Shown here one piece after another: positions 8,550 to 51,289 of a stretch of 64,000 nucleotides of DNA; the first letter of the stretch is position 1; the number at the start of each line of letters is the position of its first letter. The DNA is from Gordonia sp. PP30 (lineage in GTDB: Bacteria > Actinomycetota > Actinomycetes > Mycobacteriales > Mycobacteriaceae), in contig NZ_CP095864.1 of NCBI RefSeq assembly GCF_023100845.1, forward strand, positions 3,906,001 to 3,970,000, written 5' to 3'. A model generated the notes under the pieces. That model saw only the letters and a program-made list of their open reading frames with translations, searched no databases and had not been told where the DNA came from. The position numbers and the translations under genes are program-made.

Positions 8550-8728
8550 GCCCCTCAGCCTACGTCGCCGCGCTGCCGGGGCCGAAACAGAACCTCGCCA
8601 GTCGGACATTACCGACTCTTTACCGTTTACTGACCATTCGAGCACCTGGTACTTCGCGGTGTACTTATGGAGTCGACCAACAGAACGTCCCGACGGGACA
8701 TGTTCACGTCGAACCAATGGAGGCAGCG

Positions 8729-10399: not shown

Positions 10400-11404
10400 T
10401 CAGCTGACTCCGGCATACGAGTGCAGGCCGGAGACCACCAGGTTGATCGCGAACAGGTTGAACAGCAGGGTCGCGAAGCCGGCGACGTTGATCCAGGCGG
10501 CGGCGGTGCGCCAGCCTGCGGTCGCCCGGGCGTGCAGGTAGGCGGCGTAGACGATCCACGCGATGAAGCTCACGACCTCCTTCGGGTCCCAGCCCCAGAA
10601 CCGGCCCCAGGCCGACTCGGCCCAGATCGCTCCGAACACGACGCCCAGGCCGAACAGCGGGAACGCGACGACGACGCACTTGTAGGCGACGCGGTCCATC
10701 GCGGCGGCCGGGGGCAGGAAGTCGGTCCGCTCGGGCCAGCGCTCGCGCGCCAGGAACAACAGGCTCAGGACACCGGACACCAGCAGAATGCCGGACGAGA
10801 TCGAGATCACCGAGACGTGGATCGCCAGCCAGTACGACTTGAGCGACGGCACCACCGGTGCCGCCTGGGCGTACAGCCATTTACCCGCAATGAACATCAT
10901 CAGGCTGACGGGCACCAGCACCACGCCCATCAGCGGCCGGTACTCGGCCTTACGCAGGGCGACCAGTCCACCGACGACGACGGCGGCGCATGTCAGCGAG
11001 ATGAACTCGAACATGTTGCCCCACGGCATGCGTTCGGTCGCCAGGCCGCGCAACACGATCGACGCGATCTGCGCGGCGATACCGACGAAGACCACCGGGT
11101 ACGCGGCGGCGCTGAGCACCGCGGCGCGGGGGCGACGGAGCTTGCGTTCCGGCCCGGCGATCCGGCCCGGGGTGCGGTCCCCGGCGATGGGCACCGAACC
11201 GGCCGTGGAACCGGCGGCGGCACCGACGAGTTCCCGGTCGGCCACCGCCACCTCGGCGAACGCCTTCTTATTGGTGCTCTGCATGCCCAGCGCGATCAGG
11301 AACATCAGCATCGCGAGGATGTAGACGCCCAGTGCGGTCCCGTACAGCAGATCCGAGTAGCGGCCCAGCGTCTCGTTGACGTAGGCGGCCATGTCCGTGT
11401 TCAC
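10400..11404 (-). CDS. ccsB: cytochrome c biogenesis protein CcsB/CcsA (heme handling)
   Basis: 334 residues from GTG 11404. Multi-spanning membrane protein with the tryptophan-rich WAESAWGRFWGWDPKEV motif near residue 250, the heme-presenting WWD-like segment of System II cytochrome c synthetases. Conserved His residues in membrane segments flank it. Together with ResB it carries heme across the membrane and attaches it to apocytochrome c. It is the last gene of the resA-ccdA-resB-ccsB operon and follows resB after 38 bp. The corresponding M. tuberculosis gene is usually called ccsA. Confidence 0.93.
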   Translation of the reverse strand: MNTDMAAYVNETLGRYSDLLYGTALGVYILAMLMFLIALGMQSTNKKAFAEVAVADRELVGAAAGSTAGSVPIAGDRTPGRIAGPERKLRRPRAAVLSAAAYPVVFVGIAAQIASIVLRGLATERMPWGNMFEFISLTCAAVVVGGLVALRKAEYRPLMGVVLVPVSLMMFIAGKWLYAQAAPVVPSLKSYWLAIHVSVISISSGILLVSGVLSLLFLARERWPERTDFLPPAAAMDRVAYKCVVVAFPLFGLGVVFGAIWAESAWGRFWGWDPKEVVSFIAWIVYAAYLHARATAGWRTAAAWINVAGFATLLFNLFAINLVVSGLHSYAGVS

Positions 11405-15193: not shown

Positions 15194-16564
15194 TCATGAG
15201 GCCGCCGGTGGGACGGCGGCGGCAGCCGCTGCCGCGGCGGCCGGAAGGGCATCGGCGATGCGCGCGAAGGCGTCGTCGTCGAGTGCCGCGGATACGAACC
15301 ACGCCTCGAAGGCGCTCGGCGGCGGGTACACGCCCCCGGCCAGCAGGGCGTGGAAGAAGGGCGCGAAGCGCCAGGTCTGGGTGGCCTTCACCGACGCATA
15401 GTCGGCGATCTGGCCACCGCCCCCTGAGCCTGTCGAAGGGAACGACGCGTCGTCGAGGAAGAACACGCTGAACAGGTTGCCCGCGGCCTGCACGCGATGG
15501 GCCACGCCTGCCTTGGTCAGTTCCTCGCCCAGCAGCGCTTGCAGACGCAGCGAGTTGGCGTCGAGCGCGGCGTAGACCTCGGCGGTCGCGTGCTCGAGCG
15601 TGGCGAGGCCGGCGGCGACGGCCACCGGGTTCCCGGAGAGGGTGCCCGCCTGATAGACGGGACCGACCGGGGCGAGGTGATTCATGACGTCGGCGCGGCC
15701 GCCGAAGGCCGCGGCGGGCAGGCCGCCGCTCATCACCTTGCCGAAGGTGTAGAGGTCACCGGCCACGCCGTCGAGCCCGAAGTAGCCGGACGGGCTGACC
15801 CGGAACCCGGTCATCACCTCGTCCATGATCAGCAGTGCACCGTGACGGCGGGTGAGCTCGCGCAGGCCGGCGTTGAAGCCGGGCAGCGGGGCGACGGCGC
15901 CCATGTTTCCCGCGGCGGCCTCGGTGATCACCGCGGCGATGTCGTCGCCGTGCAGCTCGAAGGCCTGCGCCACCGCGTCGAGGTCGTTGTACGGCAGGAC
16001 GAGCGTGTCGTGCGCGGAGGCCCCGGTGACACCCGGCGAGGTCGGCAGGCCCAGGGTGGCGACACCCGAGCCGGCGTCGGCCAGCAGAGCGTCGACGTGG
16101 CCGTGGTAGCAGCCGGCGAACTTGATGATCTTGCTGCGGCCGGTGAAGCCGCGGGCGAGTCGTACCGCGGACATGGTGGCCTCGGTGCCCGAGTTGACCA
16201 GCCGGACGCGCTCGACTGGGTCGACGCGCCCGATGATCGCCTCGGCCAGGGCGATCTCCGCCTCGGTCGGGGCGCCGAAGCTGAGTCCGCTCGTCGCCGC
16301 CGTGCGCACCGCCTCCACGACCGCCGGGTGGGCGTGGCCGAGGATCATCGGCCCCCACGAGCACACCAGATCGACGTACCGATTGTCGTCGACGTCGGTC
16401 AGCGTGTATCCGGACGCGGACTTGATGAAGCGGGGTGTTCCGCCCACCGCGGAGAACGCGCGGACCGGCGAGTTCACCCCGCCCGGGATGGCGTCGCTCG
16501 CCCGGGCGAAGAGCCCGGCACTGGCGACGGTGGCCTGCTCGGGGAGGGCAGAAGGACGGACCAT
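15194..16564 (-). CDS. hemL: glutamate-1-semialdehyde 2,1-aminomutase
   Basis: 456 residues from ATG 16564. PLP-dependent class III aminotransferase that converts glutamate-1-semialdehyde to 5-aminolevulinate in the C5 heme pathway, acting after Hem[13 protein letters not shown] and the PLP lysine in [15 protein letters not shown] are present. Odd: the segment [10 protein letters not shown] near residue 381 is encoded by an 18-20 bp dispersed repeat (15421-15440) and is not expected in the family. The C-terminus is an unusually long run of alanines. The gene heads the hemL, phosphatase, resA, ccdA, resB, ccsB cluster. Confidence 0.95.
15421..15440 (-). repeat. CCTGAGCCTGTCGAAGGG repeat inside hemL
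   Basis: The 18-mer CCTGAGCCTGTCGAAGGG, a short dispersed element known to recur in many high-GC actinobacterial genomes, occurs inside hemL in frame and is read as part of FPSTGSGG. It lies where the protein should have a short surface loop before the [11 protein letters not shown] region. Confidence 0.7.
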
Positions 16565-16681
16565 GACCTCCAGTGTTCCAAATGTGCGCGCGGGCTCCCA
16601 ATCGCGCGCGACCGGAAGGCCAGCTCCGGGCGTTTTCGGGGGATGCATCTCACTGCGGAAGCCCCGGATCGCCGGCGCCCG

Positions 16682-17236
16682 TCACTCGTCGCGGACCCGC
16701 TCGGCGATCCTGTCGAACCACAGTTCTTGCGCACCGAATACCGAGACGTCGCCGCCGTAGAACCTCCGGACCGTCTGCTCGATCTGGTGCTCGTCGGAAA
16801 TCCCGAGGAGGCGGCAGAGTTCGGCGGCGTCCCGAAGGTCGCCGTCGGAGTGCCGCGTCGACATCGCCTTCATCGCGAGGACATACTCCGCGGAGGCGAT
16901 CTCGAAGGTGAGTGCCGGGCCGATCACCCGGGTGATCGGGTCTGGATCGGCGCGATCAGGCATGTGTATCTGCGTGACACCGTCGGATAGCCAGTGTTTC
17001 GGGAGGCCGCGCTCGGCGGCGACCGCATCCGCCGCCGCCAGTAGATCGTCGCGCGGGCGCAGAACACCGTCGATGTCGCCGGTCGATCGCGATGCGTTGT
17101 AGGCCAGCGCCATGGCGGCACCGCCGACGATGAAGATGATCCCCGCCAGACCGCGCCGACGCAGTTCCTCCTCCAGCGCACCGAGGAGTTCGTCGATCTG
17201 GTCCGCGGTGAATTCGATCTCGGGCACCTCGATCAC
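16682..17236 (-). CDS. nucleotidyltransferase-fold protein, possible toxin
   Basis: 184 residues from GTG 17236. Residues about 35-57 hold GGAAMALAYNASRSTGDID, the GG(x)A...R.T.DID signature of small nucleotidyltransferases of the DUF6036/AbiEii class. The C-terminal helical part (STRHSDGDLRDAAELCRLLG) also fits that class (DxxDa helix). It overlaps the upstream gene by four bases (GTGA). Members of this superfamily act as toxins in AbiE/MenA-type systems, but many are uncharacterised. The gene is followed by hemL without an obvious terminator. Confidence 0.75.
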   Translation of the reverse strand: MIEVPEIEFTADQIDELLGALEEELRRRGLAGIIFIVGGAAMALAYNASRSTGDIDGVLRPRDDLLAAADAVAAERGLPKHWLSDGVTQIHMPDRADPDPITRVIGPALTFEIASAEYVLAMKAMSTRHSDGDLRDAAELCRLLGISDEHQIEQTVRRFYGGDVSVFGAQELWFDRIAERVRDE

Positions 17237-40826: not shown

Positions 40827-40852
40827 GACTACTTGCGCAGATCCTTGCGCAG
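40827..40852. other. left attachment site
   Basis: 26-bp copy of the acyl-CoA ligase 3' end, starting GACTACTTGCGCAG and containing CTTGCGCAG twice, separated by ATC. It joins element sequence on its right and chromosomal sequence (terminator, gpmA) on its left. Confidence 0.88.
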
Positions 40853-41013
40853 TATGGCCGCATGAACGCTGTGCGGACGAGGCAATAGCCCAGTAGACAG
40901 ACTAGCGCTGTCCGCGAAATATCCTTGCCTGGCGATTCGGTGTCACAACTGAGACGGCCCCGACAGGTGTTCACGCACCGGCCAGGGCCTCGGACACACC
41001 GGAGGACATTCCG

Positions 41014-41139
41014 ATGCACCGTCATCACATCCTATCCGCGGCCCTGATCGGGGTCGGCACGCTCGCCGTCTATGGCGCGTTCCTGCTGCTCGCTCACCTG
41101 GTGTTCGCACTCGGCTGGTACGCCGGAGCACCGTCATGA
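41014..41139 (+). CDS. short membrane protein at the left end of the element
   Basis: 41 codons from ATG 41014 with GGAGG eight bases upstream. One transmembrane helix fills most of it (LSAALIGVGTLAVYGAFLLLA). The stop overlaps the start of the next gene (ATGA). It is first of three coupled plus-strand genes, opposite in direction to the element's main operon. No family is recognised. Confidence 0.65.
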   Translation: MHRHHILSAALIGVGTLAVYGAFLLLAHLVFALGWYAGAPS

Positions 41140-41453
41140 GCGCCCCGACCACAACGCTGACGGTCGAGCAGGCCGCCGAAGCGCAGACGATCCGCGAGTT
41201 GCATGACGCCACGCGGGCGCGGCTCAACGCGGCCCGCGAGCGTGGGCTGACCGCCGACGACCTGGCGGCCTATGACGACGCGTGCCGGGAGATCCGGTGC
41301 CGGGAGCAGGCGATGCGGGCGCGGTGGTGGCCGACGTCGGTGACGATCTCGGTCGCGCAGTTATCCGACGAGGTGCAGGTGATTGTGTGGCCGACGACCG
41401 ATCCGGCAGACGGGTACATGCTCGACGCGGCCGTGATCGGCGGTGCAGCATGA
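41136..41453 (+). CDS. unknown protein of the left-end operon
   Basis: 105 residues. A helical first half (VEQAAEAQTIRELHDATRARLNAARERGLTADDL) with charged heptad-like spacing and a beta-like C-terminal half (TSVTISVAQLSDEVQVIVWPT). No known domain. Overlaps both neighbours by four bases. Confidence 0.65.
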   Translation: MSAPTTTLTVEQAAEAQTIRELHDATRARLNAARERGLTADDLAAYDDACREIRCREQAMRARWWPTSVTISVAQLSDEVQVIVWPTTDPADGYMLDAAVIGGAA

Positions 41454-41866
41454 GCAGCGGCGAGGCGTTCGACCGGCACGGGCATTGCAGCAGCTTCTGT
41501 CAGGGTGCGATCAACGGCGACCATCCCCGATCCGGCACGACCAACGAGGACCACGGGGCGTTCTGCCTCGGCGTGTCCCTCGGCGGCCTCGGCTGCGGGC
41601 CGCGCGGGGAACGCACCCGGCTCTGGCTCAACCCGGTCAGGCCGTACTTCCACGGCGCCCAGACACGCGAGCAGTGGCGCGCGTTCGACGAACTCGAACG
41701 ACACTCCGGCATCGGATTGTTCATCGAGACCGGGCCCGAATGCAGTCTGATCCCTGACGTTCTGCTCTCACCGGCCGAGGCGCGGCAACTCGCCGCCGAA
41801 CTCACCTGGCTCGCCGACGTCGCCTCCGGTATCGACGGCCCGCACCCGCGGATCGGCAACGCTTAA
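41450..41866 (+). CDS. unknown protein, DUF6907-like
   Basis: 138 residues from ATG 41450. The N-terminus has a Cys/His cluster (HGHCSSFCQGAINGDH) and a further Cys pair (AFCLGV, GLGCGP); the C-terminal part ends with LLSPAEARQLAAELTWLAD, which resembles the end of DUF6907 proteins found on actinobacterial mobile elements. The metal-binding reading is inference. Last coding gene before the tRNA-like structure and the repeat array. Confidence 0.65.
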   Translation: MSSGEAFDRHGHCSSFCQGAINGDHPRSGTTNEDHGAFCLGVSLGGLGCGPRGERTRLWLNPVRPYFHGAQTREQWRAFDELERHSGIGLFIETGPECSLIPDVLLSPAEARQLAAELTWLADVASGIDGPHPRIGNA

Positions 41867-41873
41867 CCGATCG

Positions 41874-41950
41874 GCCCTGACGGTCCGCTCGAAGTCGGTG
41901 ACACCTTGTCCCTGACTTCGAGTGCGCGGGTTCGATTCCCGCGCAGGGCA
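41874..41950 (+). other. 77-nt tRNA-like fold
   Basis: Acceptor-like strands GCCCTGA (41874-41880) and GCAGGGC (41943-41949) pair at six of seven positions, with A41950 as discriminator. A perfect T-arm GCGGG-TTCGATT-CCCGC (41926-41942) directly precedes the 3' strand, exactly as in tRNA. Instead of D and anticodon arms there is one 11-bp hairpin (41886-41896 with 41914-41924, one G-U pair, arms CTCGAAGTC and GACTTCGAG) and a 17-base loop. No encoded CCA (CGC follows). Total length equals a tRNA. Either a tRNA-derived remnant or a functional tRNA mimic such as a tmRNA-like domain. Confidence 0.5.
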
Positions 41951-42263
41951 CGCACGCAACCGTTCCGACCGCGTTGCCGTCGCTATCCGCAGGGTCCGAC
42001 GTAAACCGACCAGCAGCACGTAGCCCAGTCCCATGCCGTGCTCATGGGCCACCGTAGACACGCCTGATCAACGCGCTATCGGTGCCATTACCCAGACACG
42101 TCCCAACGGGCCGGGTCCATTCGGTGATGGCCTGACGCGATAGGTAGGCAAGGCTCGTGGGTCGAACGGCGATGGGGCAACGACACCGGCACCCTTGGGT
42201 TCGACTGGCTTGGAAGTGAACGTAGACCGGGCGTGTCGCACCGATCAGTCCAGCTCGGGAAGT

Positions 42264-42473
42264 GTCCGGCCCGCGCGCATGGGAGGAGAACTTGGGGAGT
42301 TCTTCTTAACCTGGTCAACAGGAAGTCCGGCCCGTGCGCAGCGGAGAGCACCGGGATGGTCTCCTTCAGAAGAAGACCATCAAGGTCCGGCCCGCGCGCA
42401 GCGGGAGAGCACCGTCTTCTGCAGACCATGTTCCCTGTCCGGGGGTCCGGCCCGTGCACAACGGAGAGCACCG
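42264..42473 (-). CRISPR. four-repeat array resembling a cas-less type I-E mini-CRISPR
   Basis: Repeats of 28-30 bp begin with GTCCGGCCCG at 42264, 42325, 42385 and 42445 (plus strand), i.e. every 60-61 bp, and end in GAGAGCAC(CG). Read on the minus strand they start GTGCTCTCC, like type I-E repeats (GTGCTCCCC...), and the best copy has a CCCGC/GCGGG hairpin. The copy at 42264-42291 is degenerate at its distal end, as terminal repeats often are. Spacers are 33, 31 and 30 bp and unrelated. A possible fifth eroded repeat starts in phase at 42506 (GTCCAGCC). Against a CRISPR: the middle spacer is nearly a palindrome and no cas gene is in the window. Confidence 0.5.
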
Positions 42474-42693
42474 AGCGGGGCTGGGGCATTGATCCCCCGC
42501 GAAGGGTCCAGCCGCCGTCCAGGGCATAGGCGGTATCTCTCTCTGATCCCCCCTCCCCCAGGAGGCCGAAATCCCCAGACCCGTGCAGAACCTGAGCACG
42601 TATGACCAACGGGCCCGTCTGACCCCGGGGGCGGAGGGGGCAATGTCCCACCCCTCTGTTTGTGCTGGTGGTCGCGCGTGTCGCAGAAAGGGT
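42474..42693. other. non-coding stretch behind the capsid operon
   Basis: The sequence between the array and the terminator holds no gene that I can support. It contains pyrimidine- and purine-rich runs (TCTCTCTCTGATC followed by CCCCTCCCCC) and a possible degenerate array repeat from 42506. The 41951-42263 stretch on the other side of the array likewise shows no gene or clear signal. Confidence 0.4.
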
Positions 42694-42735
42694 GAGACCC
42701 GGCCGGCAGTAACCAGAAACTGCGGGCCGGGTCTC
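42694..42735. terminator. terminator of the capsid operon
   Basis: GAGACCCGGCCGGCAG (42694-42709) pairs at 15 of 16 positions with CTGCGGGCCGGGTCTC (42720-42735) around a 10-base loop. It lies 49 bp behind the capsid stop on the minus strand. Confidence 0.85.
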
Positions 42736-42783
42736 GGTTCGGGCGGTCAGGCGACCAAGCGTGATCCGCCCGGGTCTTGTGTG

Positions 42784-43635
42784 TCAGCCTTCGCCGTCGT
42801 CGATGGTGAACTTCCCGATTCGGTCGGGGCGGGGCAGGACGTGGCCGGTTCGCCAGGTTGCCCGGATTCCGATTGAGTCGTGGGCGAAGTAGGCGGACGG
42901 GTCGGTGGTGACGGTGACGGGTCCAGCAGCGGTGAGGATCGCGGACTGGTCGAGGAGGACACCGGAGCCGCTGGGGATCGCGGGGTTGACCTTGACGGGG
43001 ATGCCCAGCAGGAGTGGCTGGGCGTTCTCGGTGCCGGCGCCGAGCAGGTTCTGGTTGCTGGCCGCGGCCGTCTTGAACTTTCGGATCTCGGCCCACGTCG
43101 CGGGCGCGAGTACCCACGCGGTGGGGTTGGCGCCAGCCGCGCGGACGGACGCTTCGAGGTCGATCAGCGCGTCGAGGTTGCCGTCTTCGACGACTTCGAC
43201 CGACAAGCCGGTGGTGTTCAGGATCCCGGCGACGGGTGCGACTGCGGGTGCGGTCGGTGCTGCCTGTGCCAGCAGTGCCTGGTCGGCTTTGCGGGTGAGT
43301 GCTCGGGAGACGCTGCGGGCGAGCTCGGCCGGGGTGTTGTTCTGCCGGTACTGCTCGCTGGTGAGGCGGATCAGTTGGGCGATTTTGCGGCTGTAGATGG
43401 TGGCTGCGGCGAGTCCGGGTTCGCCTTCGGGGATCTCGTCTCCTTCGGCGACGAACTGCGCGTCGTCGTCGACGACGTAGGCAACCTCTATGACGGGCTG
43501 GTCGCCTTCGATCGCGCCGACAGCGAGCGTGTCGGTGAGGATCAGCGCGTCCGGCAGGACGTCGCCGGCGTCGAACACGTGCTGATCTGGGCGCCAGGGG
43601 CTGGCGGAATTGCTGGTGGTGGCGGTGTGTGCCAT
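42784..43635 (-). CDS. HK97-type phage major capsid protein
   Basis: 283 residues from ATG 43635. Typical order for an HK97-fold capsid protein: N-terminal arm (PWRPDQHVFDAGDVLPDALIL), E-loop-like region with FVAEGDEIPEGEPGLAAATIY followed by KIAQLIRLTSEQYRQN, spine helix (ELARSVSRALTRKADQALL), then the A-domain (VLAPATWAEIRKFK, LLGIPVKVNPAIPSG) and C-terminal P-domain strands (SIGIRATWRTGHVL). No delta domain or protease gene is visible; scaffolding comes from the gene at 44127. Preceded by a partial duplicate of its own 5' end. Confidence 0.87.
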   Translation of the reverse strand: MAHTATTSNSASPWRPDQHVFDAGDVLPDALILTDTLAVGAIEGDQPVIEVAYVVDDDAQFVAEGDEIPEGEPGLAAATIYSRKIAQLIRLTSEQYRQNNTPAELARSVSRALTRKADQALLAQAAPTAPAVAPVAGILNTTGLSVEVVEDGNLDALIDLEASVRAAGANPTAWVLAPATWAEIRKFKTAAASNQNLLGAGTENAQPLLLGIPVKVNPAIPSGSGVLLDQSAILTAAGPVTVTTDPSAYFAHDSIGIRATWRTGHVLPRPDRIGKFTIDDGEG

Positions 43636-43662
43636 GAGTGCTCCAGGTGTGATGAAAAGGGC

Positions 43663-43998
43663 TTAGGGGATCCGGTGCCGTCCTGCGGTCTGCCGGGTGC
43701 CCACCTGGGGCGTGCGGGCCGGAACCGTTGGGGCGTCTCGCCTGTGCCGGTCCCGGCCCTCACAGTTTATCGCGTGCGCCAGTCGAACGCGGCTTCGAGC
43801 GTGCCCTTCGGCGACGAACTGGGCGTCGTCGTCGACGATGTAGGCGACTTCGATCACCGGCTGGTCGCCTTCGATCGCTCCGACCGTGAGCGTGTCGGTG
43901 AGGATCAGCGCGTCCGGCAGGACTTCGCCGGCGTCGAACACGTGCTGGTCGGGACGCCACGGGGTAGCGGCGGCGGCGGTGGAGATGGTGTGCGGCAT
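43663..43998 (-). pseudogene. truncated second major capsid gene
   Basis: Starts like the full capsid gene and matches it for 65 residues (PWRPDQHVFDAGEVLPDA, AIEGDQPVIEVAYIVDDDAQ). It then runs out of homology at the duplication junction and continues 46 codons out of frame through a scaffold remnant and intergenic sequence. A made product would be only a capsid N-arm fragment with an unrelated Arg-rich tail. Confidence 0.8.
43716..43759 (-). promoter_or_regulatory. hairpin before the capsid gene (copy 1)
   Basis: GGGCCGGAACCG pairs with CGGTCCCGGCCC (one mismatch). The same structure occurs at 44078-44118 in the duplicate. Its place between scaffold and capsid genes suggests a partial terminator or RNA-processing site that adjusts expression ratio; this is inference. 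Confidence 0.5.
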
Positions 43999-44077
43999 TG
44001 GATTGCTCCCAGGTTGGAGTGTCGGGGTTCCGGTGTCCGCGTCACGCGGTGCGTCGGTTGCCCTCCTGGGGCGATCG

Positions 44078-44118
44078 GGCCGGGACCGTGGGGCCTCTCG
44101 CCTCGGCTGGTCCCGGCC
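44078..44118 (-). promoter_or_regulatory. hairpin between scaffold and truncated capsid gene (copy 2)
   Basis: Perfect 10-bp arms GGCCGGGACC and GGTCCCGGCC. Conserved with the copy at 43716-43759 despite sequence drift, which argues for function. Confidence 0.5.
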
Positions 44119-44126
44119 CTCTCAGT

Positions 44127-44603
44127 TTATCGGCCCTGCTGGCGGTAGTCGAACGCCGCTTCGAGAGTGCCGCGGGGCCGGTGAGACGGTAGCCCTTGCT
44201 GCGGGTTGGGACGTGGCCCGCCGAGCCCGAGTTCAGTCTTGATCGCCTGGGCGCGTTCGGTGAGGGCGGTCAGGTTGAGGTGGCCGTCGTCGTCGCGGAA
44301 GTCGTCGAGCTTCTGCTCGGATACCTCCCAGAGACGCGGGTCGAGGTTCGCCGTGGCCAGGGCGTGGCCGAGCAGTTTGGTCTCGACCGCTTCCAGGCGT
44401 GCGGCGAGTTCGTCGCGTTCGGTGCGGGCCTGGTTGCGCTGGTGCCGGAGCTTGGCGGCCTCACGGTTGCCGTTGCCCTTGTCCTCCGGTGCTTCGCTCT
44501 CCTGTTCGTCGGATCCGTCGTCGACCTGTTCGTCGATGGTGTCCTCGGGCTCGACGGTCGGGTCGTCGATGCGCTGGTCTTCGGTGCTGGTCTGCTCGGT
44601 CAT
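44127..44603 (-). CDS. capsid scaffolding protein
   Basis: 158 residues from ATG 44603. Strongly acidic N-terminus (DPTVEPEDTIDEQVDDGSDEQ), a charged coiled-coil centre (REAAKLRHQRNQARTERDELAARLEAVETKLL) and a polar C-terminus. This composition and position directly before the capsid gene are typical of phage scaffolding proteins. Overlaps the upstream gene by four bases. Confidence 0.75.
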   Translation of the reverse strand: MTEQTSTEDQRIDDPTVEPEDTIDEQVDDGSDEQESEAPEDKGNGNREAAKLRHQRNQARTERDELAARLEAVETKLLGHALATANLDPRLWEVSEQKLDDFRDDDGHLNLTALTERAQAIKTELGLGGPRPNPQQGLPSHRPRGTLEAAFDYRQQGR

Positions 44604-44929
44604 TGCTGGCCTTCCTGGTCGGTGGTGATGGTGGGTAGTTGGTCGATGTCGGCGAGGGTGACCATCACGTGTGCTTCCTGCTGCCACAGGGCGTCGATCA
44701 CTGCCTCGGGTGTGCTGCCGGTGAGCTCGGCGAAACTGCGGACCACCGACAGCAGCATCGCGGTGGCGCCGGCGAGGAGTTCGTCGACGGTCCCGCTCGT
44801 CTGCTCGTGCCGATAGAGCATGTCCGCCTCTTCGGGCTCGTTCCAGTGGATCTTGGCGGCGATGTCCAACGCTTGGAGGCGGCCGCGGCGGACCCGGATT
44901 TCGTCTTTCACGGTGGGTTCAGTGGTCAT
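44600..44929 (-). CDS. unknown protein of the capsid operon
   Basis: 109 residues, mainly helical (LQALDIAAKIHWNEPEEADMLYRHE, LLAGATAMLLSVVRSFAELTG). No HTH or catalytic motif is apparent. Overlaps both neighbours (shares one base with the WhiB stop and four with the scaffold start). Could be a head-completion or regulatory protein; not assignable. Confidence 0.65.
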   Translation of the reverse strand: MTTEPTVKDEIRVRRGRLQALDIAAKIHWNEPEEADMLYRHEQTSGTVDELLAGATAMLLSVVRSFAELTGSTPEAVIDALWQQEAHVMVTLADIDQLPTITTDQEGQQ

Positions 44930-45216
44930 CAGGGTGTTTTCCTTTCATGGGGGCGGCCCGGTCGGGCCTGGGGGATGATCTCGGCGAGGACGCCGGGAGG
45001 TCGGTGCTTCGGCGGGATCCGCTCGGCCCAGTCCCGGCAGGCGGCCAGCGCTGGGCACCTCGAGCAGATGGCGGCGGCGCGATGGTGTCGTGCTTCGACC
45101 TCGGCGTGGTCCTCGTCCTCGGCGGCCGGATCGAACAGCGCCCATTGCCCTCGGCAGGCGGCCTCGGTGAGGTCGGGCTGGTCGGCCAGCAGCTCGGCGA
45201 GCTTCCGGGCGCTCAC
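44929..45216 (-). CDS. WhiB-family iron-sulfur regulator
   Basis: 95 residues from GTG 45216. Four cysteines in the WhiB pattern: C21 (EAACRG), C51 and C54 (AICSRCPAL), C60 (LAACRDWA). They should hold a [4Fe-4S] cluster. The WhiB turn is weak: the GGxxxxER motif is replaced by WAERIPPKHRPPGVL. The C-terminus has basic residues for DNA contact. Phage WhiB proteins in mycobacteriophages can block host WhiB2 or affect superinfection. The gene is coupled on both sides. Confidence 0.85.
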   Translation of the reverse strand: MSARKLAELLADQPDLTEAACRGQWALFDPAAEDEDHAEVEARHHRAAAICSRCPALAACRDWAERIPPKHRPPGVLAEIIPQARPGRPHERKTP

Positions 45217-45431
45217 AGCTCGACCCCGCGATCGGCGGCGTCATGCAGGGCGTCGGCGAGACGGCGGGCCTGCCCGGCTGTGAGCGTGATCCCCTCCAGC
45301 GACACCATGCCGTCGCCGAGCAGGTGCACGACCGGGATCAGCTGATCGGGCCGGCAGTTCCGGCAGTACCGGGTCGCTGAACGGGTGACCTTCGGACACG
45401 ATCTGCATCGGACACCGCGACGTTTCTTCAT
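45213..45431 (-). CDS. small zinc-ribbon-like protein
   Basis: 72 residues from ATG 45431. Basic N-terminus with two CxxC-type knuckles (RCRSCPKV and RYCRNCRPD), likely one zinc site, then a strand and the helix LTAGQARRLADALHDAADRG, which resembles the C-terminal motif of small actinobacterial mobile-element proteins. Function unknown. Four-base overlaps with both neighbours. Confidence 0.65.
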   Translation of the reverse strand: MKKRRGVRCRSCPKVTRSATRYCRNCRPDQLIPVVHLLGDGMVSLEGITLTAGQARRLADALHDAADRGVEL

Positions 45432-45850
45432 CGGACTACCTCCAACCGTGGAGGGGCGATGTACCTGACCGACCCGGTGAAGGTCACCGGGCACCAGCGC
45501 ACCACCGCGTACCCGCGATCCCCGTGCCGGGCGTGCGGCGCCAGGGCGGTCGGCAGTTCCTCCCAGGCCTCGGTAGGCAGGTTCGCCGGATCGGCCGGCC
45601 ACAGGTGCTCGAACTCCATGCCGTCGCCGTCGACGCGGACCGTCGAGCAGATCGGGCGGCCGTCGCTGTACCGCGTGAACGGGTCCGGCGGCATGGCGAT
45701 CAGCGCGGCGGTGAACGCCTCGGCAGGCTCGCTACAGCAGTCGTCGCTATGGCCGTGATCGGACAGTTCCTGGAGCAACCACGTGCTGGTGCGAACCAGG
45801 CGGCGCGCGGCGTGGATCAGGCGATCAGTATCGCGGTCAGGAGAGATCAT
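45428..45850 (-). CDS. unknown protein downstream of the replication ATPase
   Basis: 140 residues from ATG 45850. A helical N-terminus (LIHAARRLVRTSTWLLQELSDHG) with DDCCSEPAEAF, then a beta-rich part with FEHLWPADPANLPTEAWEELPTALAP. No domain recognised. Coupled to the ATPase gene by an ATGA overlap. Confidence 0.6.
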   Translation of the reverse strand: MISPDRDTDRLIHAARRLVRTSTWLLQELSDHGHSDDCCSEPAEAFTAALIAMPPDPFTRYSDGRPICSTVRVDGDGMEFEHLWPADPANLPTEAWEELPTALAPHARHGDRGYAVVRWCPVTFTGSVRYIAPPRLEVVR

Positions 45851-47109
45851 CGGTCGGCCTCCTTCTGTGCGTTGGCGAGGGCGGCGGCGACGCGGTCGGT
45901 TTGCCCCGGCGAGTCGGGTGTGAGACCGCCCGGCGGTGGCGCGCACATGGCGTGGCGGCCTAGCGGAGCGTCCTCGGCGTCGAGCGGTCCGTATCCGCAC
46001 ACTGAGCAGTCGACATCGGGTGTTGAAACCGTTGAAAGTGTGTAATTGCCTGGTGAGAGGCCCTGTTCGGTTTCAACATTGCCGAGGGGGAGTGTTGAAA
46101 CGCGGTCATGGTCGGCATCCGAGTGTTCGTCGGTTTCAACACTTTCAACACTTTCAACAGGGGTATAGACGCCCCGGCCTGCCTTCATGATCCGGCCCGC
46201 CTTGGACAGGCGACCGAGATACGTTCCGGCCGATTCGGCCGTGATCGGAGGATCCAGGGCCTCGGCGACGGCGGTCGGTCCGATGCCCCCGGGGTGCTCG
46301 GTGACGACGTTCAGGATCTCGATCGCCCGGTCTCCCAGCCCTGCCGAGGCTCGCGCGGTCTGCGCCTTGCTCGCGGCCTCGGCGAGCACCTCCCCATCGA
46401 GCACCCAGCGCCCCTCTCGGGACGTCACCGCATACTCAGACTCGGGAACGTCGCGGCCCGTGACCCGGATGATCCCGGCGTCATCGTTGCGACTGCGCGA
46501 TAGGTTGAGCGTGAAGTCCGCGGCCCCGTTGAGCCCGTTCGTGCCGCTGGTCGAGTCCATCCAGTCATCCGATGCCGCCTTCCGGACGTGGTGAACGACC
46601 AGGACACATGCGCCCGGATGCTCGTCGGCGTACGCCTTCAACTTCGAGCCGATCCGGTAGTCCCGCTGATACGCCGACTCGCCCGGTGCGCTATCCGGTG
46701 CGACCTTCCCGAGCGTGTCCAGAATGACCAGGGGCGCAGCACTTCCGTGCTCGTACAGCCACGCTCCCATCTCGTCCCACACATGCGCCGGCGGGATCCT
46801 GGTGATGTAGTGCAGCAGCGGCGGGATCGGTTCCCCGTCGAGCAGCGCGCGACAGCGACCCTGGAGGCGGCGTTCCCCATCTTCGAGTGCCATCAGCAGG
46901 GTCGGCCGCGCGTGTCCGGTCGGCACCTTCCCGAGCGCACGACCACCTGAGGCCACCGCCAGGGCGATACCGAGTGCGGCCCAGGACTTGCCGGCCTTGG
47001 GCGCGCCGGTGAGAAGTCCCATACCTTCGGGGATGAGGCCGGGCACGGCCCAGCGCAGCGGCGGGAACACCTGAGCGTCGAGCTGATCGCCCGTCTTCAC
47101 GTACGTCAT
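45847..47109 (-). CDS. RepA-like AAA/RecA-fold ATPase (replication initiator or helicase loader)
   Basis: 420 residues. Walker A GAPKAGKS at 35-42, Walker B-like APLVILDTLGKV near 126, and VLVVHHVRKAASDDWMDSTSG (sensor/hexamer contact) identify the RecA-like AAA_25 class found as RepA in plasmids and phage elements. A winged-helix-like domain follows (RAIEILNVVTEHPGGIGPTAV). The C-terminal part has a Cys/His cluster (DCSVCGYG...HAMC). Between them the repeated VES/VST/VET segment is encoded by iteron-like DNA. It starts directly after the previous stop. Presumed to drive replication of the excised element. Confidence 0.82.
   Translation of the reverse strand: MTYVKTGDQLDAQVFPPLRWAVPGLIPEGMGLLTGAPKAGKSWAALGIALAVASGGRALGKVPTGHARPTLLMALEDGERRLQGRCRALLDGEPIPPLLHYITRIPPAHVWDEMGAWLYEHGSAAPLVILDTLGKVAPDSAPGESAYQRDYRIGSKLKAYADEHPGACVLVVHHVRKAASDDWMDSTSGTNGLNGAADFTLNLSRSRNDDAGIIRVTGRDVPESEYAVTSREGRWVLDGEVLAEAASKAQTARASAGLGDRAIEILNVVTEHPGGIGPTAVAEALDPPITAESAGTYLGRLSKAGRIMKAGRGVYTPVESVESVETDEHSDADHDRVSTLPLGNVETEQGLSPGNYTLSTVSTPDVDCSVCGYGPLDAEDAPLGRHAMCAPPPGGLTPDSPGQTDRVAAALANAQKEADR
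46021..46160. repeat. iteron-like GTTGAAA repeats within the ATPase gene
   Basis: Seven copies of GTTGAAA in both orientations (about 46022, 46031, 46071, 46094, 46133, 46142, 46151), three of them back to back with 9-bp spacing as GTTGAAAGT on the minus strand. The segment is clearly richer in A/T than its surroundings. Encoded protein here reads VESVESVET, RVST, NVET, TLSTVSTPD. Confidence 0.7.
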
Positions 47110-47481
47110 CTAGCTCACCCCGCTCTCAGCTCGCGGAATGTATGCCGCAGACGCGCGGTCGGACAAGAATTTCGCCTCGGCCGACCAGTCCCGGGCGGCG
47201 GAGACAGCGACGGATGCGGCCTTCATCGCCTCGGCCCGCTGCAGACGTTCACGCTCCCGGTCGAGCGCGCCGCGCACGAGGCACGTGAGCGCGTCCGTCC
47301 AGAGCTCGGGATCAACTGCCGGCGGCGGGACGATCGCCCGGAGCCTGGAACGGACGACCAGTGCTTCCTGGTAGCTGCAGGGTCGGCGCTTCGTTTTCGG
47401 ATCCGAGCTACTATCGAGGTGATCCGCCCGATCATTCTGGAGAGCCCCGGTCTGCACGCCGGGGTTTTCTTCTGTCTGCAT
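47110..47481 (-). CDS. unknown protein before the replication ATPase
   Basis: 123 residues. Polar N-terminus, then helices with RSRLRAIVPPPAVDPELWTDALTCLVRGALDRERERLQRAEAMKAASVAVSAAR. No motif recognised. Its start shares a base with the upstream stop and its stop abuts the ATPase start codon, so it belongs to the replication-capsid operon. Confidence 0.6.
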   Translation of the reverse strand: MQTEENPGVQTGALQNDRADHLDSSSDPKTKRRPCSYQEALVVRSRLRAIVPPPAVDPELWTDALTCLVRGALDRERERLQRAEAMKAASVAVSAARDWSAEAKFLSDRASAAYIPRAESGVS

Positions 47482-47837
47482 CAGACCTCACCGCCGATCC
47501 GGTCGGCCTGGTGATCGGTGAGTCCCAGATCAGCGTGCTCTGCCTGGGCGAGCTCGCGTTCGGCCGCAGCGGCGGTCTCGGCGAACTCTCGGGACTTGCG
47601 ACGAGCCTGCGCCGACTTGAGTGCGAGCCGCTTGAAGTACGCTTTGCGGGCGTGCTCAGCGCGGCGTGCGCGTTCGGCCGGCGGCAGGGTGCCGTCTGGG
47701 TCCACCTGCTTCTCGAACCGGTCGAGAGCGGCTTTACGGGCCGGTGCGGTGCGCGCGGCGCGGTCGGGAGTGCGTGCCCATGATTCGTGGGCGGCGATTT
47801 CGGCGCGAAGTGCGCGCTCTGTAGGTGTGAGAGCCAT
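47481..47837 (-). CDS. helical basic protein, first gene of the replication-capsid operon
   Basis: 118 residues, nearly all charged helix (TERALRAEIAAHESWARTPDRAARTAPARKAALDRFEKQV, AERARRAEHARKAYFKRLALKSAQARRKSREFAETAAAAERELAQ). Composition suggests a coiled coil or nucleic-acid binder. Similar small proteins are frequent in actinobacterial plasmids and phages. The 137 bp upstream hold the likely promoter. Confidence 0.6.
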   Translation of the reverse strand: MALTPTERALRAEIAAHESWARTPDRAARTAPARKAALDRFEKQVDPDGTLPPAERARRAEHARKAYFKRLALKSAQARRKSREFAETAAAAERELAQAEHADLGLTDHQADRIGGEV

Positions 47838-47922
47838 GACTTACCTCGGGGTACGTCGAGGTGGACTACTTGTGGTGAAGCAGTCCTGTAGTGGCTCACA
47901 CCCGGTGGGTGCTGCGCTCGGG

Positions 47923-47962
47923 ATAATCACGAGTCCCAAGCTCCCGGAGTACCTATGTACTC
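47923..47962 (-). promoter_or_regulatory. candidate promoter and palindromic operator of the main operon
   Basis: GAGTAC-CTAT-GTACTC (47947-47962) is a perfect 6-bp inverted repeat with a 4-base centre, extended imperfectly by flanking C/G runs. On the minus strand a -10-like GATTAT lies at 47928-47923. The operator would overlap the -35 region. It lies in the only sizeable gap between the integrase pair and the replication genes. Confidence 0.4.
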
Positions 47963-47974
47963 GGGCACAGCGTA

Positions 47975-48559
47975 TCAGCGCGCGCGAGTGACCAGTGTGC
48001 GCAACACGCCGGAGTCGATCAGAATCGCAGTTCCGTCGATTCGGATCCCGGCAGGCAGTTCAGTTCCGTGCTCGGCGGCATCGCAGAGCCCGTTGAAGAT
48101 CTGATAGAACAGCCGCGCGCGAGCACGCGGCACCCCGCCACCGAGATCCCAGGTCTCCTGACCGATCTGCACCGGACCGCCTGGTGCCTTCCGCGCCGAG
48201 TGAGTGCGCCCGACGTCCCGGCGGCGCGCGATGGTCTTACTCGGATCCACGCTATCGAGCGCGTCCTTCTGGCGCTCGGGCCCGCTCTTGCCGGTCGGCG
48301 GTTCCCAGAAACTGAAGTTCTGCAGGTGAGCGCGCGCGTCGGTTTGCTCCTGCTCGCGGGCCTTGTCCATCGCCTTGACGACGGCGAACGGGTCATCGGC
48401 TCGTGTGCGGACGTTGCCGGGCTCGCGGGTGTATCCGTCGCGCCGGTCCTGCTGTGCCGACTGCGGTGTGTCGATGTCCCAGCGCTGGCCAGCGGACCCG
48501 GCCCGGCGAAGGGTGTGCAGCATCTTGCGGCCGTCCACGACGACAACGGTGTCGATCAC
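47975..48559 (-). CDS. unknown protein coupled to the integrase
   Basis: 194 residues from GTG 48559; GTGA overlaps the integrase stop. N-terminus VVVVDGRKMLHTLRRAG, a charged centre (DDPFAVVKAMDKAREQEQTDARAHLQNFSFWEPP), C-terminus YQIFNGLCDAAEHGTELPAGIRIDG. No HTH or known domain seen. Coupling to the integrase suggests a role in recombination or its control, but there is no direct evidence. Confidence 0.6.
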   Translation of the reverse strand: MIDTVVVVDGRKMLHTLRRAGSAGQRWDIDTPQSAQQDRRDGYTREPGNVRTRADDPFAVVKAMDKAREQEQTDARAHLQNFSFWEPPTGKSGPERQKDALDSVDPSKTIARRRDVGRTHSARKAPGGPVQIGQETWDLGGGVPRARARLFYQIFNGLCDAAEHGTELPAGIRIDGTAILIDSGVLRTLVTRAR

Positions 48560-49461
48560 AGATCCCCCAGGTTCAGACGGCGCGCCTCATCGGCGGCGCG
48601 CATCGACTTGGTGTGTGCGGCGTATCGGTCGACCATCTCGCGGCTGTGCCATCCGGCGACGCTCATCAGGCCGCCTTCGGATCCGCCGGCGGCCAGCCAC
48701 CGGGACGCCGCGGTGTGTCGGAGTACATGCGGGTGAAAGTTGGAGATTCCCGCGGCGGTCGCTCTGCGTTCCAGTGCGCGATAGAGACCCATGTACTCGA
48801 AGGTGCGCCCCCGCTCCCCGAGCCACAGGCGCGGAGACTCGGCGAGTCGGTGCTTACGGCGGGCTCGGATCCAGCGGTCGAGGGCTTGCACGGCTTCGGG
48901 TCCGATCGGCACTATGCGGCCGCGCTTGGACTTCGAGCGGCGGACCGTGACGAGCCCCTTCGCGAGGTCGATGTCGTCGAGGGTGAGCCCGGCGACTTCA
49001 CCGGCTCTCATTCCGGTTTCCAGCATGACGCGCACGATCGCCTCGTCGCGGCGATCGGTCCACTCTTTGCCTTGGCACGCCTTCACGAGGGCGGCGAGTT
49101 GAGTGTCGTCGAGGGTCTCGACGACCTTCACGTCGATCTTCGGCGCTTTGCTGTTGAGGAGTTGGTCGGCGTCGATCTCGTCCTCGGCGGCGAGCCAGGC
49201 CGAGAATCGGCGCAGCGCCAGATGTCGGGTGGCGGCAGTCGCCGGTTCCGCCCCGTTGTCGAGCAGGTGAGTCATGAACGCCGCGACGGTGGTGCGGTCG
49301 AGGTTCGGCGGCGTCCCGGTCTCGTCGGCCCAGGCCAGGAACTGTGAGACGCCGGTGGTGTAGCCCTTGAGCGTGTTCGCGGACTTGCGTTCGGCGCGCA
49401 GGTGAAGCACCCAGGAGGCCATGAGGTCTCTCAGGTCGTCAGTGGTGAACTCGCCGGACAT
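48556..49461 (-). CDS. tyrosine recombinase (integrase)
   Basis: 301 residues. N-terminal SAM-like core-binding domain (SWVLHLRAERKSANTLKGYTTGVSQFLAW) and catalytic domain with Arg in TGMRAGEVAGL, the HxLR motif in FHPHVLRHTAASRWL, a His/Trp position in AGWHSREMVDRY and the nucleophile Tyr in DRYAAHT. It has the XerC/D-like short form without an obvious arm-binding domain. It lies 98 bp from the right attachment repeat, as usual for integrases reading inward. Confidence 0.95.
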   Translation of the reverse strand: MSGEFTTDDLRDLMASWVLHLRAERKSANTLKGYTTGVSQFLAWADETGTPPNLDRTTVAAFMTHLLDNGAEPATAATRHLALRRFSAWLAAEDEIDADQLLNSKAPKIDVKVVETLDDTQLAALVKACQGKEWTDRRDEAIVRVMLETGMRAGEVAGLTLDDIDLAKGLVTVRRSKSKRGRIVPIGPEAVQALDRWIRARRKHRLAESPRLWLGERGRTFEYMGLYRALERRATAAGISNFHPHVLRHTAASRWLAAGGSEGGLMSVAGWHSREMVDRYAAHTKSMRAADEARRLNLGDL

Positions 49462-49559
49462 GCCCTATATCTTGCCACACAGCGCTGTACTCAGATACAG
49501 TGAAGGCCGGTGGTCAACGTTTCCGCTGATCACCGGCCAAAACTGAATCGCTGAGCGAG

Positions 49560-49585
49560 GACTACTTGCGCAGATCCTTGCGCAG
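49560..49585. other. right attachment site within the acyl-CoA ligase gene
   Basis: Identical 26-bp repeat to 40827-40852. It encodes the last residues (LRKDLRK and stop) of the acyl-CoA ligase, so the element supplies or preserves an intact gene end after insertion. Two CTTGCGCAG 9-mers three bases apart are the repeated Leu-Arg-Lys codons. Confidence 0.88.
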
Positions 49586-51166
49586 GATCTTGCCGGAGGC
49601 CGACTTCGGGATCGCGGCGATGAACTCCACCTGGCGGACCTTCTTGTACGGGGCCACCCGCTCGGCGGTGAAGGCCATCACCTCGTCCGCGGTCAGCTCC
49701 TGGCCCTCCTGGAGCACGACGAACGCCTTCGGCACCTCTTCACCCTCGTCGTCGTGCGAGCCGACGACGGCGACGTCGGCGATCTTCGGATGGGTCAGCA
49801 GCAGGGCCTCCAGCTCGGCCGGCGGCACCTGGTAGCCCTTGTACTTGATCAGTTCCTTGAGGCGGTCGACGATCGTGATGCAGCCGCTCGCATCGACGGT
49901 CGCCATGTCGCCGGTGTGCAGCCAGCCGTCGGCGTCGATGGTCTCGGCGGTGGCCTTGTCGTTGTTCAGGTAGCCGGCCATCACGTTGGGGCCGCGCACC
50001 CACAGCTCACCCGGCTCCGAAACACCCTCGGCGGGGATGTCGATGTCGTCGCCGGTACCCGGGTCGACCAGCCGGTTCTCGGTGTTCGGCACCGGCCAGC
50101 CCACCGACGACAGGGGAGCCAGCACGCCGCGGGTGTTCTCGCCGCCGTCGAACGGGATGATGTGACTGACCGGCGACAGCTCGCTCATGCCGTAGCCCTG
50201 CAGCATCCGCAGGTTCAGGCGCTCGGCGACGGCGTGGCCCAGCTCGGCGTCGAGCGGTGCCGCGCCGGAGAGCATGGTGTGCACCGACGACAGGTCGTAC
50301 TTGTCGACGATCGGGTGCTTGGCGAGGGCGACGGCCACCGGCGGCGCGATGAACGCGTAGGTGATCTTGTGGGTCTGGATGCCCTCGAGGAACTCGATCA
50401 TGTCGAAGCGCGGCATCACGAAGAGCGAGGCCCGCGCCTTGAGCGCCGCGTTGAGCAGCACGGTCATGCCGTAGATGTGGAAGAAGGGCAGCACCGCGAG
50501 GACCACGTCGTCCGGGGTCATCCCGTTGAGCGGCTCGATCTGCGCCACGTTGGCCACCAGGTTGCGGTGGGTGAGCATGACGCCCTTGGGGTTGCCGGTG
50601 GTACCGGAGCTGTACGGCAGGACCGCGAGGTGGGTGGCCGCGTCGAACGACACGTCCGGGGCGCGCAGCCCGGCGCCGAGCAGGTCGGCGGCGTTCGGGT
50701 GACCGCTCGCGGCCTGCCCCTCGCCGTCGAGAACGATGATGTTCGCGTCGTCGATGCCGACCTCGCGCGCGGCCTCGATGGCCTGCGGCGACAGCAGCGA
50801 GATGGTGACGATCATCTTGGCCTTGGAGTCGACCAGCTGCTTGGCGATGTCCTTCTCGGTGAACAGCGCGTTGAGCGTGGTCGCGGTGCCGCCGCTGCGG
50901 AGGATGCCGTGGAACACGGTGGCGAACGCCGGGATGTTCGGCGACAGCACGGCGACCACGTCGCCCACGCCGATGCCGCGGGCGGCGAGCGCACCGGCGG
51001 CCGCGTCGATCTGGCCGATCAGCTGGCGGTAGGTGGTGGTGGCGCCGGTCTTGGCGTCGATCAGGGCGACTCGGTCGAGATCACTCTCGGCGATCGAGCC
51101 GAAGAGGAAGTCGTAGACGCTGACATTCGGGATCTCGACGTCGTCGTACGGATTGCGAAAGCTCAT
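49562..51166 (-). CDS. acyl-CoA / 4-coumarate-CoA ligase family protein
   Basis: 534 residues from ATG 51166, with GGAGG upstream. Adenylate-forming enzyme: AMP-binding motif LPYSSGTTGNPKGVMLTHRN, MLQGYGMSELSP, WLHTGDMATVD, VDRLKELIKYKGYQV and the C-terminal catalytic Lys in PKSASGKILRKDL. Probably activates fatty or aryl acids as CoA thioesters. Its 3' end is the attachment site of the element; the reading frame is intact. Confidence 0.93.
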   Translation of the reverse strand: MSFRNPYDDVEIPNVSVYDFLFGSIAESDLDRVALIDAKTGATTTYRQLIGQIDAAAGALAARGIGVGDVVAVLSPNIPAFATVFHGILRSGGTATTLNALFTEKDIAKQLVDSKAKMIVTISLLSPQAIEAAREVGIDDANIIVLDGEGQAASGHPNAADLLGAGLRAPDVSFDAATHLAVLPYSSGTTGNPKGVMLTHRNLVANVAQIEPLNGMTPDDVVLAVLPFFHIYGMTVLLNAALKARASLFVMPRFDMIEFLEGIQTHKITYAFIAPPVAVALAKHPIVDKYDLSSVHTMLSGAAPLDAELGHAVAERLNLRMLQGYGMSELSPVSHIIPFDGGENTRGVLAPLSSVGWPVPNTENRLVDPGTGDDIDIPAEGVSEPGELWVRGPNVMAGYLNNDKATAETIDADGWLHTGDMATVDASGCITIVDRLKELIKYKGYQVPPAELEALLLTHPKIADVAVVGSHDDEGEEVPKAFVVLQEGQELTADEVMAFTAERVAPYKKVRQVEFIAAIPKSASGKILRKDLRK

Positions 51167-51289
51167 GGGCCCTCCATCGGTGGTGTGCGGAGCAATGGTA
51201 GCAATGGTGATTGTCACGGTTTCGGTGACGGCGGCCACCCGGCGCCGCGGCAGATCATCGGGTATGTCCGATTCTGCCTCGGGGTGGTT

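Follow-up and report, generated by a model that had tools for sequence, protein, structure and literature searches.

An integrated element of Gordonia sp. PP30 with its own capsid and replication genes: a candidate phage satellite with a conserved structured RNA

Small prophage elements of actinobacteria may be satellites (PMC10023795). In Mycobacterium, integrated elements with an integrase and a capsid gene, some of them with helicase and scaffold genes, have been described as candidate phage-inducible chromosomal islands (PICIs); they include phiRv1 and phiRv2, and their helper dependence was proposed, not shown (PMC10654092, mSystems 2023). The capsid-forming PICIs (cf-PICIs) encode capsid, protease, portal, connectors, both terminase subunits and an HNH endonuclease (PMC10690885). 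Here and below, published systems are compared as they are described in excerpts of the cited papers. The subject of this work is an element of Gordonia sp. PP30 located in a stretch of 64,000 nucleotides of contig NZ_CP095864.1 (positions 3,906,001 to 3,970,000; hereafter the window, whose own coordinates are used). It carries an integrase, a replication-type ATPase and an HK97-type capsid gene, and is probably, with a probability of about 0.7, an integrated phage satellite that makes its own shell and would borrow portal, terminase and tail from a helper. The original prediction for this DNA proposed an undescribed family, which is too strong, since integrase-plus-capsid candidate PICIs have been published for Mycobacterium (PMC10654092). 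A search of the open-access literature on actinobacterial capsid satellites returned no Gordonia satellite by title.

Structure and insertion site of the element

The element occupies ~8.7 kb (40827-49588) and is framed by an exact 26-bp repeat, GACTACTTGCGCAGATCCTTGCGCAG, at 40827-40852 and 49560-49585. No further copy was found in the window at up to three mismatches, and the chance expectation was a mean of 0.00 over 100 shuffles; ungapped extension lengthened the repeats to 29 bp with one mismatch. The right copy coincides with the end of an acyl-CoA synthetase gene (49562-51238, minus strand), supplying its last codons and its stop; the gene was left intact by the insertion at its 3' end. 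Twenty loci with this 3' end were compared, the window locus among them and the other 19 all from Gordonia. The phosphoglycerate mutase gene (gpm), which adjoins the left repeat in the window, starts 43-1190 bp past the synthetase stop in 11 of these 19, and in the other eight it lay outside the stretch examined. With at most 1.2 kb between the flanking genes in 11 of 19 loci, the element is an insertion between two often-neighbouring genes and, as read from the sequence, a site-specific one at the synthetase 3' end.

Repeat and family searches bore out the predicted arrangement of integrase (PF00589, 1.1e-31), RepA-like ATPase (AAA_25, PF13481, 4e-24), WhiB-like protein (PF02467, 1.2e-5) and HK97-type capsid (Phage_capsid, PF05065, 7.4e-23; TIGR01554, 9.4e-21) between perfect repeats. 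The operon ends in a putative scaffold gene followed by the capsid gene, the focal genes are open, and the terminal repeats are still nearly identical. Terminase, portal, tail, protease and lysis genes had been noted as absent, and no such family, nor any head-tail connector, was matched among the ten focal proteins scanned in Pfam and ten in PHROGs. Small terminase and HNH endonuclease families were likewise without a match in these scans, although a small unrecognised gene, e.g. a small terminase, could remain; the 140-, 72-, 41- and 105-aa genes were outside them and gave no match in the other family scan, the PADLOC scan or both. Since the element has its own ATPase and shell genes and no gene was found to fill or tail the head, a satellite needing a helper is the simplest account. 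Three plus strand genes (41014-41866), a structured RNA, an array of 28-bp repeats and a partial duplication of the capsid gene were found in addition to what had been predicted (Table 1).

A profile built from 17 capsids matched solved phage capsids (best 9lbm, 5.1e-9), and its positions 57-277 aligned with 55-277 of the 1ohg chain (E 1.5e-4); the capsid therefore has the length of mature HK97 gp5, without a delta domain. The likely scaffold gene precedes it. This gene lies directly upstream of the capsid gene, its product has an N-terminal part that is acidic by eye, and relatives of it stand beside the capsid gene in 12 of the 20 related loci described below. Its place, composition and conservation thus fit the scaffold originally predicted, but it is without a good family match and is regarded as putative. 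Peptide patterns confirmed no capsid relative in IMG/VR or in named genomes. Between the putative scaffold gene and the capsid gene, a tandem duplication of ~360 bp comprises the capsid leader and the first ~65 codons, diverged to ~85%, and leaves a 111-aa open reading frame (ORF).

Related capsid loci and resident relatives

Capsid matches (E ≤1e-3) were obtained in 84 of 301 genomes sampled from the family, 300 plus the window's own, which is counted. Twenty capsid loci in 19 genomes were examined: leaving the window genome aside, these are the 19 best and that of G118; the matches in G008:C24 and G070:C57, which cover residues 58-275 only, rank between these and were left out. The 20 capsids are 30-53% identical to the window capsid. 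Their loci include a replication gene in 12 cases (10 by profile, plus L036 and L051), a WhiB-like gene in 10, a tyrosine integrase in nine and the structured RNA in three. Integrases, primases, helicases and three head-tail adaptors were recognised among 121 called ORFs around these capsids, in a scan that rests on the 25 most frequent of 92 PHROG families and of 63 Pfam families and that could have passed over individual tail or portal genes. Our gene caller misses low-bias genes, and gene counts at related and RNA-bearing loci are lower bounds.

On the contigs of the 20 capsids, no large terminase (PF03354; phrog_9) was found within 20 kb of a capsid, the nearest being 24 kb away in G195, although phrog_9 had matches in nine of the 20 genomes (the 19 and the window's own). 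Portal PF04860 and S78 protease PF04586 were not found near these capsids either. The terminase profile adopted was phrog_9, because PF03354 missed both terminase sites of the host genome. At 15 of the 20 loci the contig extends for more than 11 kb in either direction, and contig breaks may conceal neighbours at the others, and at other related loci too. As a control, 12 more distant capsid matches in the genomes searched with phrog_9 were inspected, with the host's own elements and the RNA-bearing loci set aside; seven of them lie 2.1-3.1 kb from a phrog_9 match (G157:C106, G008:C24, G202:C57, G202:C44, G228:C11 and two in G086). The search for elements of similar layout thus yielded relatives in whose capsid neighbourhood neither a terminase nor a portal was found. 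The possibility that the element is a unique deletion product had been raised with the original prediction; 20 related loci with no large terminase detected within 20 kb speak otherwise, and the element is not a lone deletion product.

The host genome contains two sister elements and two likely prophages. The first sister, L059 (884-904 kb stretch), is bounded by a 24-bp repeat with one mismatch at 2106 and 12022 that reads like a tRNA 3' end, and the second, L060 (1044-1064 kb stretch), by a 32-bp repeat (positions 8711 and 17916). All three elements have in common the 41-aa and 140-aa genes, stretches of the left end and a noncoding block, and both sisters differ from the window element in the replication gene and the shell gene. 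L060 encodes a 403-aa HK97 capsid, and its integrase is interrupted by an insertion sequence (15799-16986); in L059 the capsid position is occupied by a 283-aa protein of no family. Large terminase (phrog_9) was found in two regions of the genome only, at ~3.05 Mb (3.054) and ~3.44 Mb (3.439). The latter has a portal and a capsid by PHROGs and a protease by Pfam, the only PF04860 match of the genome being at 3.438 Mb and the only PF04586 match at 3.437 Mb, in this prophage; the ~3.05-Mb region was called a prophage from its run of ORFs alone. These two likely terminase-bearing prophages are possible helpers.

Table 1. Features of the element in window coordinates
Feature	Position	Strand	Basis or remark
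attL-like repeat, 26 bp exact, 29 bp with one mismatch	40827..40855		Displaced copy of acyl-CoA synthetase 3' end
41-aa putative membrane protein	41014..41139	+	Gene also in both sister elements and L100
105-aa protein	41136..41453	+	79% identity over 92 aa to counterpart in sister element L060
138-aa protein	41450..41866	+	Relatives in L059, L099
Structured RNA, conserved	41874..42205	+	tRNA-like domain 41874-41951, two H-type pseudoknots 41977-42053, conserved 3' part
Four ~28-bp repeats, 60-61 bp spacing	42264..42472	-	CRISPR-like in form only
HK97-type major capsid protein, 283 aa, without N-terminal delta domain	42784..43635	-	Pfam, PHROGs, profile against PDB
Partial duplication of capsid gene 5' part, 111-aa ORF	43663..43998	-	First ~65 codons; protein 83-85% identical
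Putative scaffold, start 44687 or 44603	44127..44687	-	Place, composition, conservation; not family
109-aa protein	44600..44929	-	No family match (Pfam, PHROGs)
WhiB-like protein	44929..45216	-	Pfam, PHROGs
72-aa protein	45213..45431	-	Relative in sister element L059, within 129-aa reading, 88% identical
140-aa protein	45428..45850	-	Common to all three resident elements and L088, L099, L101
RepA-like AAA_25 ATPase, 420 aa	45847..47109	-	Pfam, PHROGs
123-aa protein	47110..47481	-	DUF2742 match, sub-threshold (Pfam)
118-aa protein	47481..47837	-	phrog_2842 (unknown function)
194-aa protein	47975..48559	-	No family match (Pfam, PHROGs, further family scans)
Tyrosine integrase, 301 aa	48556..49461	-	Pfam, PHROGs, further family scan
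attR-like repeat within acyl-CoA synthetase 3' end	49560..49588		Repeat search and flanking-gene comparison

A structured RNA and the shell genes beside it

The noncoding block that is strongly conserved in the window element, L059 and L060 folds better than shuffled sequence on the plus strand (z -2.97; minus strand z -0.53). Further copies were collected by iterated nhmmer, most of their loci having first been chosen for blastn similarity to the block. Across 24 distinct sequences, 88.5% of cells pair in the two successive pseudoknots of the RNA centre, and both sides changed in 18 of 23 pairs, with compensatory changes in two of five pairs of helix 1, seven of seven of helix 2, four of five of helix 3 and five of six of helix 4; the window copy has one broken helix 2 pair (A-A). 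The covariation score was 0.497, against a shuffled mean of 0.151 (reached by 0 of 500 shuffles) and at most 0.100 with the partners slid, and two coarser measures were reached by 1 and 11 of 500 shuffles. Because the structure was drawn by eye from the same sequences, it has an advantage over its slid counterparts, and the shuffle test is inflated by relatedness; a gap of this size and the compensatory changes would be hard to get in either way.

The 5' part of the window RNA resembles a tRNA without a D-arm, with an acceptor stem, a 13-bp hairpin and a T-arm with a TTCGATT loop (-47.3 kcal/mol), a minimum that was not reached for every relative, partly since the folded pieces were short. T-arms of 5-8 bp, whose stems differ, were found in 15 of the 24 sequences including phage GRU3, and were not found in phages Nedarya and RGL3 and seven others. 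No Rfam family reached the gathering score over the RNA. The weak match to RF04354 (E 0.26) lies antisense over the tRNA-like part, as do matches of this family over genuine tRNA genes elsewhere; we read it as indicating no more than a tRNA-like shape. A tRNA gene or a transfer-messenger RNA (tmRNA) was rejected, as ARAGORN found none and Rfam, its tmRNA models included, gave none at the gathering score. A cos/pac site was not supported, the block being mid-genome in Nedarya and RGL3 and 1.3-1.6 kb from the record end in GRU3, nor was an attP, since the stretch examined in Nedarya has parAB next to the block and no integrase. A simple promoter and terminator scan gave nothing above chance, with one promoter-like site on the opposite strand (0.2 expected) and one terminator-like site (0.9 expected). 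The ~330-nt RNA, for which Rfam has no family, is the new finding here and a candidate for a new phage RNA family; a search of the open-access literature returned no paper judged relevant by title on a satellite or actinophage RNA of such a kind.

A model of the RNA centre matched 48 of 401 genomes (11 of 31 genera) at E ≤1e-4, with rough E-values of which the weakest may be chance. The host genome has three copies, one per element. The RNA is also carried by some Gordonia and Rhodococcus phages: it was found in 28 records of Gordonia phages (Nedarya and Soups among them; some phages are represented twice) and in GRU3 and RGL3. With two other copies as queries no phage was matched, and no plasmid had a match to the RNA. 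In IMG/VR, one stricter pattern found nothing and another found one 14.7-kb contig. This contig (L111, 14656 bases) is apparently a complete, very small tailed phage, as its translations were read by eye, with the RNA upstream of the terminase operon.

The operon side of the RNA was surveyed for shell genes at 24 RNA-bearing loci, the window and 23 others. Capsids of the window type were found in seven (the window, L034, L036, L037, L089, L090 and L093), HK97 capsids of 403-406 aa in three (L060, L098 and L104), a protease-capsid fusion of 572 aa in one (L087), a PF25209 capsid with a PF09956-type cement protein in three (L088, L095 and L101, the first and last being 99% alike), and a 283- or 301-aa protein of unknown family in two (L059 and L099). 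The latter protein (L059 7511-8362; L099 9295-10200), at the capsid position and with no significant family, could be a shell or assembly protein. Beside the PF25209 capsid and cement genes of L088, a 160-aa gene (9577-10059) corresponds to the C-terminal, scaffold-like part only of a Mu-type protease/scaffold. No shell gene was recognised in the remaining eight loci; three of these (L096, L100 and L102) have less than 3 kb available on the operon side, and the other five (L091, L092, L094, L097 and L103), with more than 5 kb there, are perhaps shell-less, or their capsid was missed.

The RNA-bearing elements with other shell genes had no terminase nearby either. Three terminase and two portal queries gave no tblastn match in the 23 loci, a weak test, as the prophage protease query missed the L087 protease that Pfam detects. 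In the 18 genomes behind L087-L104, phrog_9 was present in 11, with matches on contigs other than that of the RNA or at least 36 kb off; several of these contigs are short. One Gordonia genome (G360) showed 27 large terminase family matches, many on small contigs.

Next to the RNA is the repeat array of the window element, whose intervening sequences are unrelated to each other, some of them, as in L059, being self-complementary by eye. L059 has a like array at 10563-10770 and a lone inverted copy at 9869. In the host genome the repeats are confined to these two elements at up to three mismatches, and at up to six they were in no other stretch scanned. A CRISPR array was rejected, Cas1 (PF01867) not having been found in the host genome (0/1). 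No phage matched the array portion of the query at E 0.01, and two blastn matches to the repeats in other genomes were chance ones outside any array.

Interpretation and comparison with known satellites

On infection by a helper phage, or on its induction, the element may excise and then replicate with its own ATPase. Its scaffold would build the element's own shell, which is probably small and uncleaved, and the helper would supply portal, terminase, connector and tail. The RNA adjoining the operon is a separate conserved gene common to the candidate satellites and some phages.

It is unlikely that capsid and scaffold serve instead as weapons that poison or redirect the head assembly of an invading phage, favouring the element or the host, without the element being packaged in the shell. 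This would agree with the lack of a detected portal or large terminase to fill the shell, and the truncated capsid copy could be dominant-negative. However, the operon has its own putative scaffold, a search of 50,697 phage records (E 1e-5) found no capsid relative, so that co-assembly with a known phage capsid is improbable, and PADLOC matched none of the 10 element proteins scanned, a set in which capsid and scaffold were not included.

That the element is an inert remnant of a prophage whose terminase, portal and tail genes were lost by deletion is likewise unlikely. The partial duplication of the capsid 5' part and the insertion sequence within the L060 integrase could be read as decay, but the focal genes are open and the repeats nearly identical, the flanking genes neighbour each other in relatives, the same genes are missing, as far as tested, from 20 relatives whose capsids are 30-53% identical, and different shell modules reach the same state. 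A host-domesticated compartment, encapsulin-like or part of a gene-transfer agent, is most improbable: an HK97 fold without packaging genes could suggest it, as could two of 14 weak PDB matches (E 0.033) named Rcc01687 or its relative, which we take to be a gene-transfer-agent capsid, but the better matches are named phage capsids and none encapsulin, and integrase, repeats and patchy presence indicate a mobile element.

Several points weigh against a helper-dependent satellite with its own shell. Between the elements and the prophage regions only matches of 27 and 37 bp were found (L060 with L144) and none for the window element, the scaffold has no good match to any Pfam or PHROGs family, and the absence of capsid relatives from the phage records leaves nothing that ties the capsid to a known portal or tail. 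The integrase profile finds a tyrosine integrase in just nine of the 20 relatives, of which three carry a head-tail adaptor family (two checked singly) and so are not strictly shell-only, nor is L087 with its fused protease; small terminase families were matched by one of 72 called operon-side ORFs near the RNA, in a scan resting on 25 of 47 families. The searches themselves are imperfect: PF04860 matched in three of the 20 genomes against nine for phrog_9, and so misses portals, and one side of the contig is short in five cases (G152, G282, G157:C120, G200 and G019). Five of the 12 controls were without a terminase (G300:C1:2439177, G288:C2:3879689, G215:C96, G176:C11 and G282:C109), which means that phrog_9 misses some or that these are also satellites.

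A satellite that makes its shell and borrows the rest would stand for a recurring intermediate between satellites remodelling the capsid of a helper and satellites that bring a whole head, with shell genes but no portal or large terminase, reached with several shell modules. How the shell of a satellite is mated to a portal and terminase of foreign origin becomes a testable question, and the covarying RNA provides a concrete handle for locating such elements. More tentatively, the RNA, rather than any packaging gene, could be the hallmark of a large actinobacterial satellite class with exchangeable shell cassettes, and might act in exchange between satellite and phage, e.g. in packaging, late-expression takeover or immunity.

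Compared with P4/SaPI-type satellites, which redirect helper capsid assembly via scaffold-like proteins, the window element has its own major capsid gene, and shares with them a presumed dependence on helper-derived packaging and tail (PMC10690885). Like cf-PICIs, it is an integrated candidate satellite with its own major capsid gene, but the protease, portal, connectors and large terminase of those elements were sought and not found (PMC10690885). MulchRoom and MiniFlayer, Streptomyces phage satellites, are also actinobacterial and have their own capsid and scaffold, the latter putative here; they encode a portal, an adaptor and the two subunits of the terminase but lack an obvious replicase (PMC10690885), whereas in the window element a replication-type ATPase is present and no such packaging gene was found. 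It resembles the Mycobacterium candidate PICIs, which are small, integrated and provided with integrase and major capsid gene (PMC10654092). An integration gene and a major capsid gene in one phage-like region that is not an intact prophage, by which such candidates were recognised, occur together here, and the terminase, portal and tail genes of a complete prophage do not. The structured RNA is not mentioned for these candidates in the excerpts of that paper, and the likeness to the phiRv elements is one of description. The window element differs in its host, Gordonia, in the lack of a detected terminase, and in its site at a protein gene, whereas the three Mycobacterium examples with a tyrosine integrase are at tRNA genes (PMC10654092).

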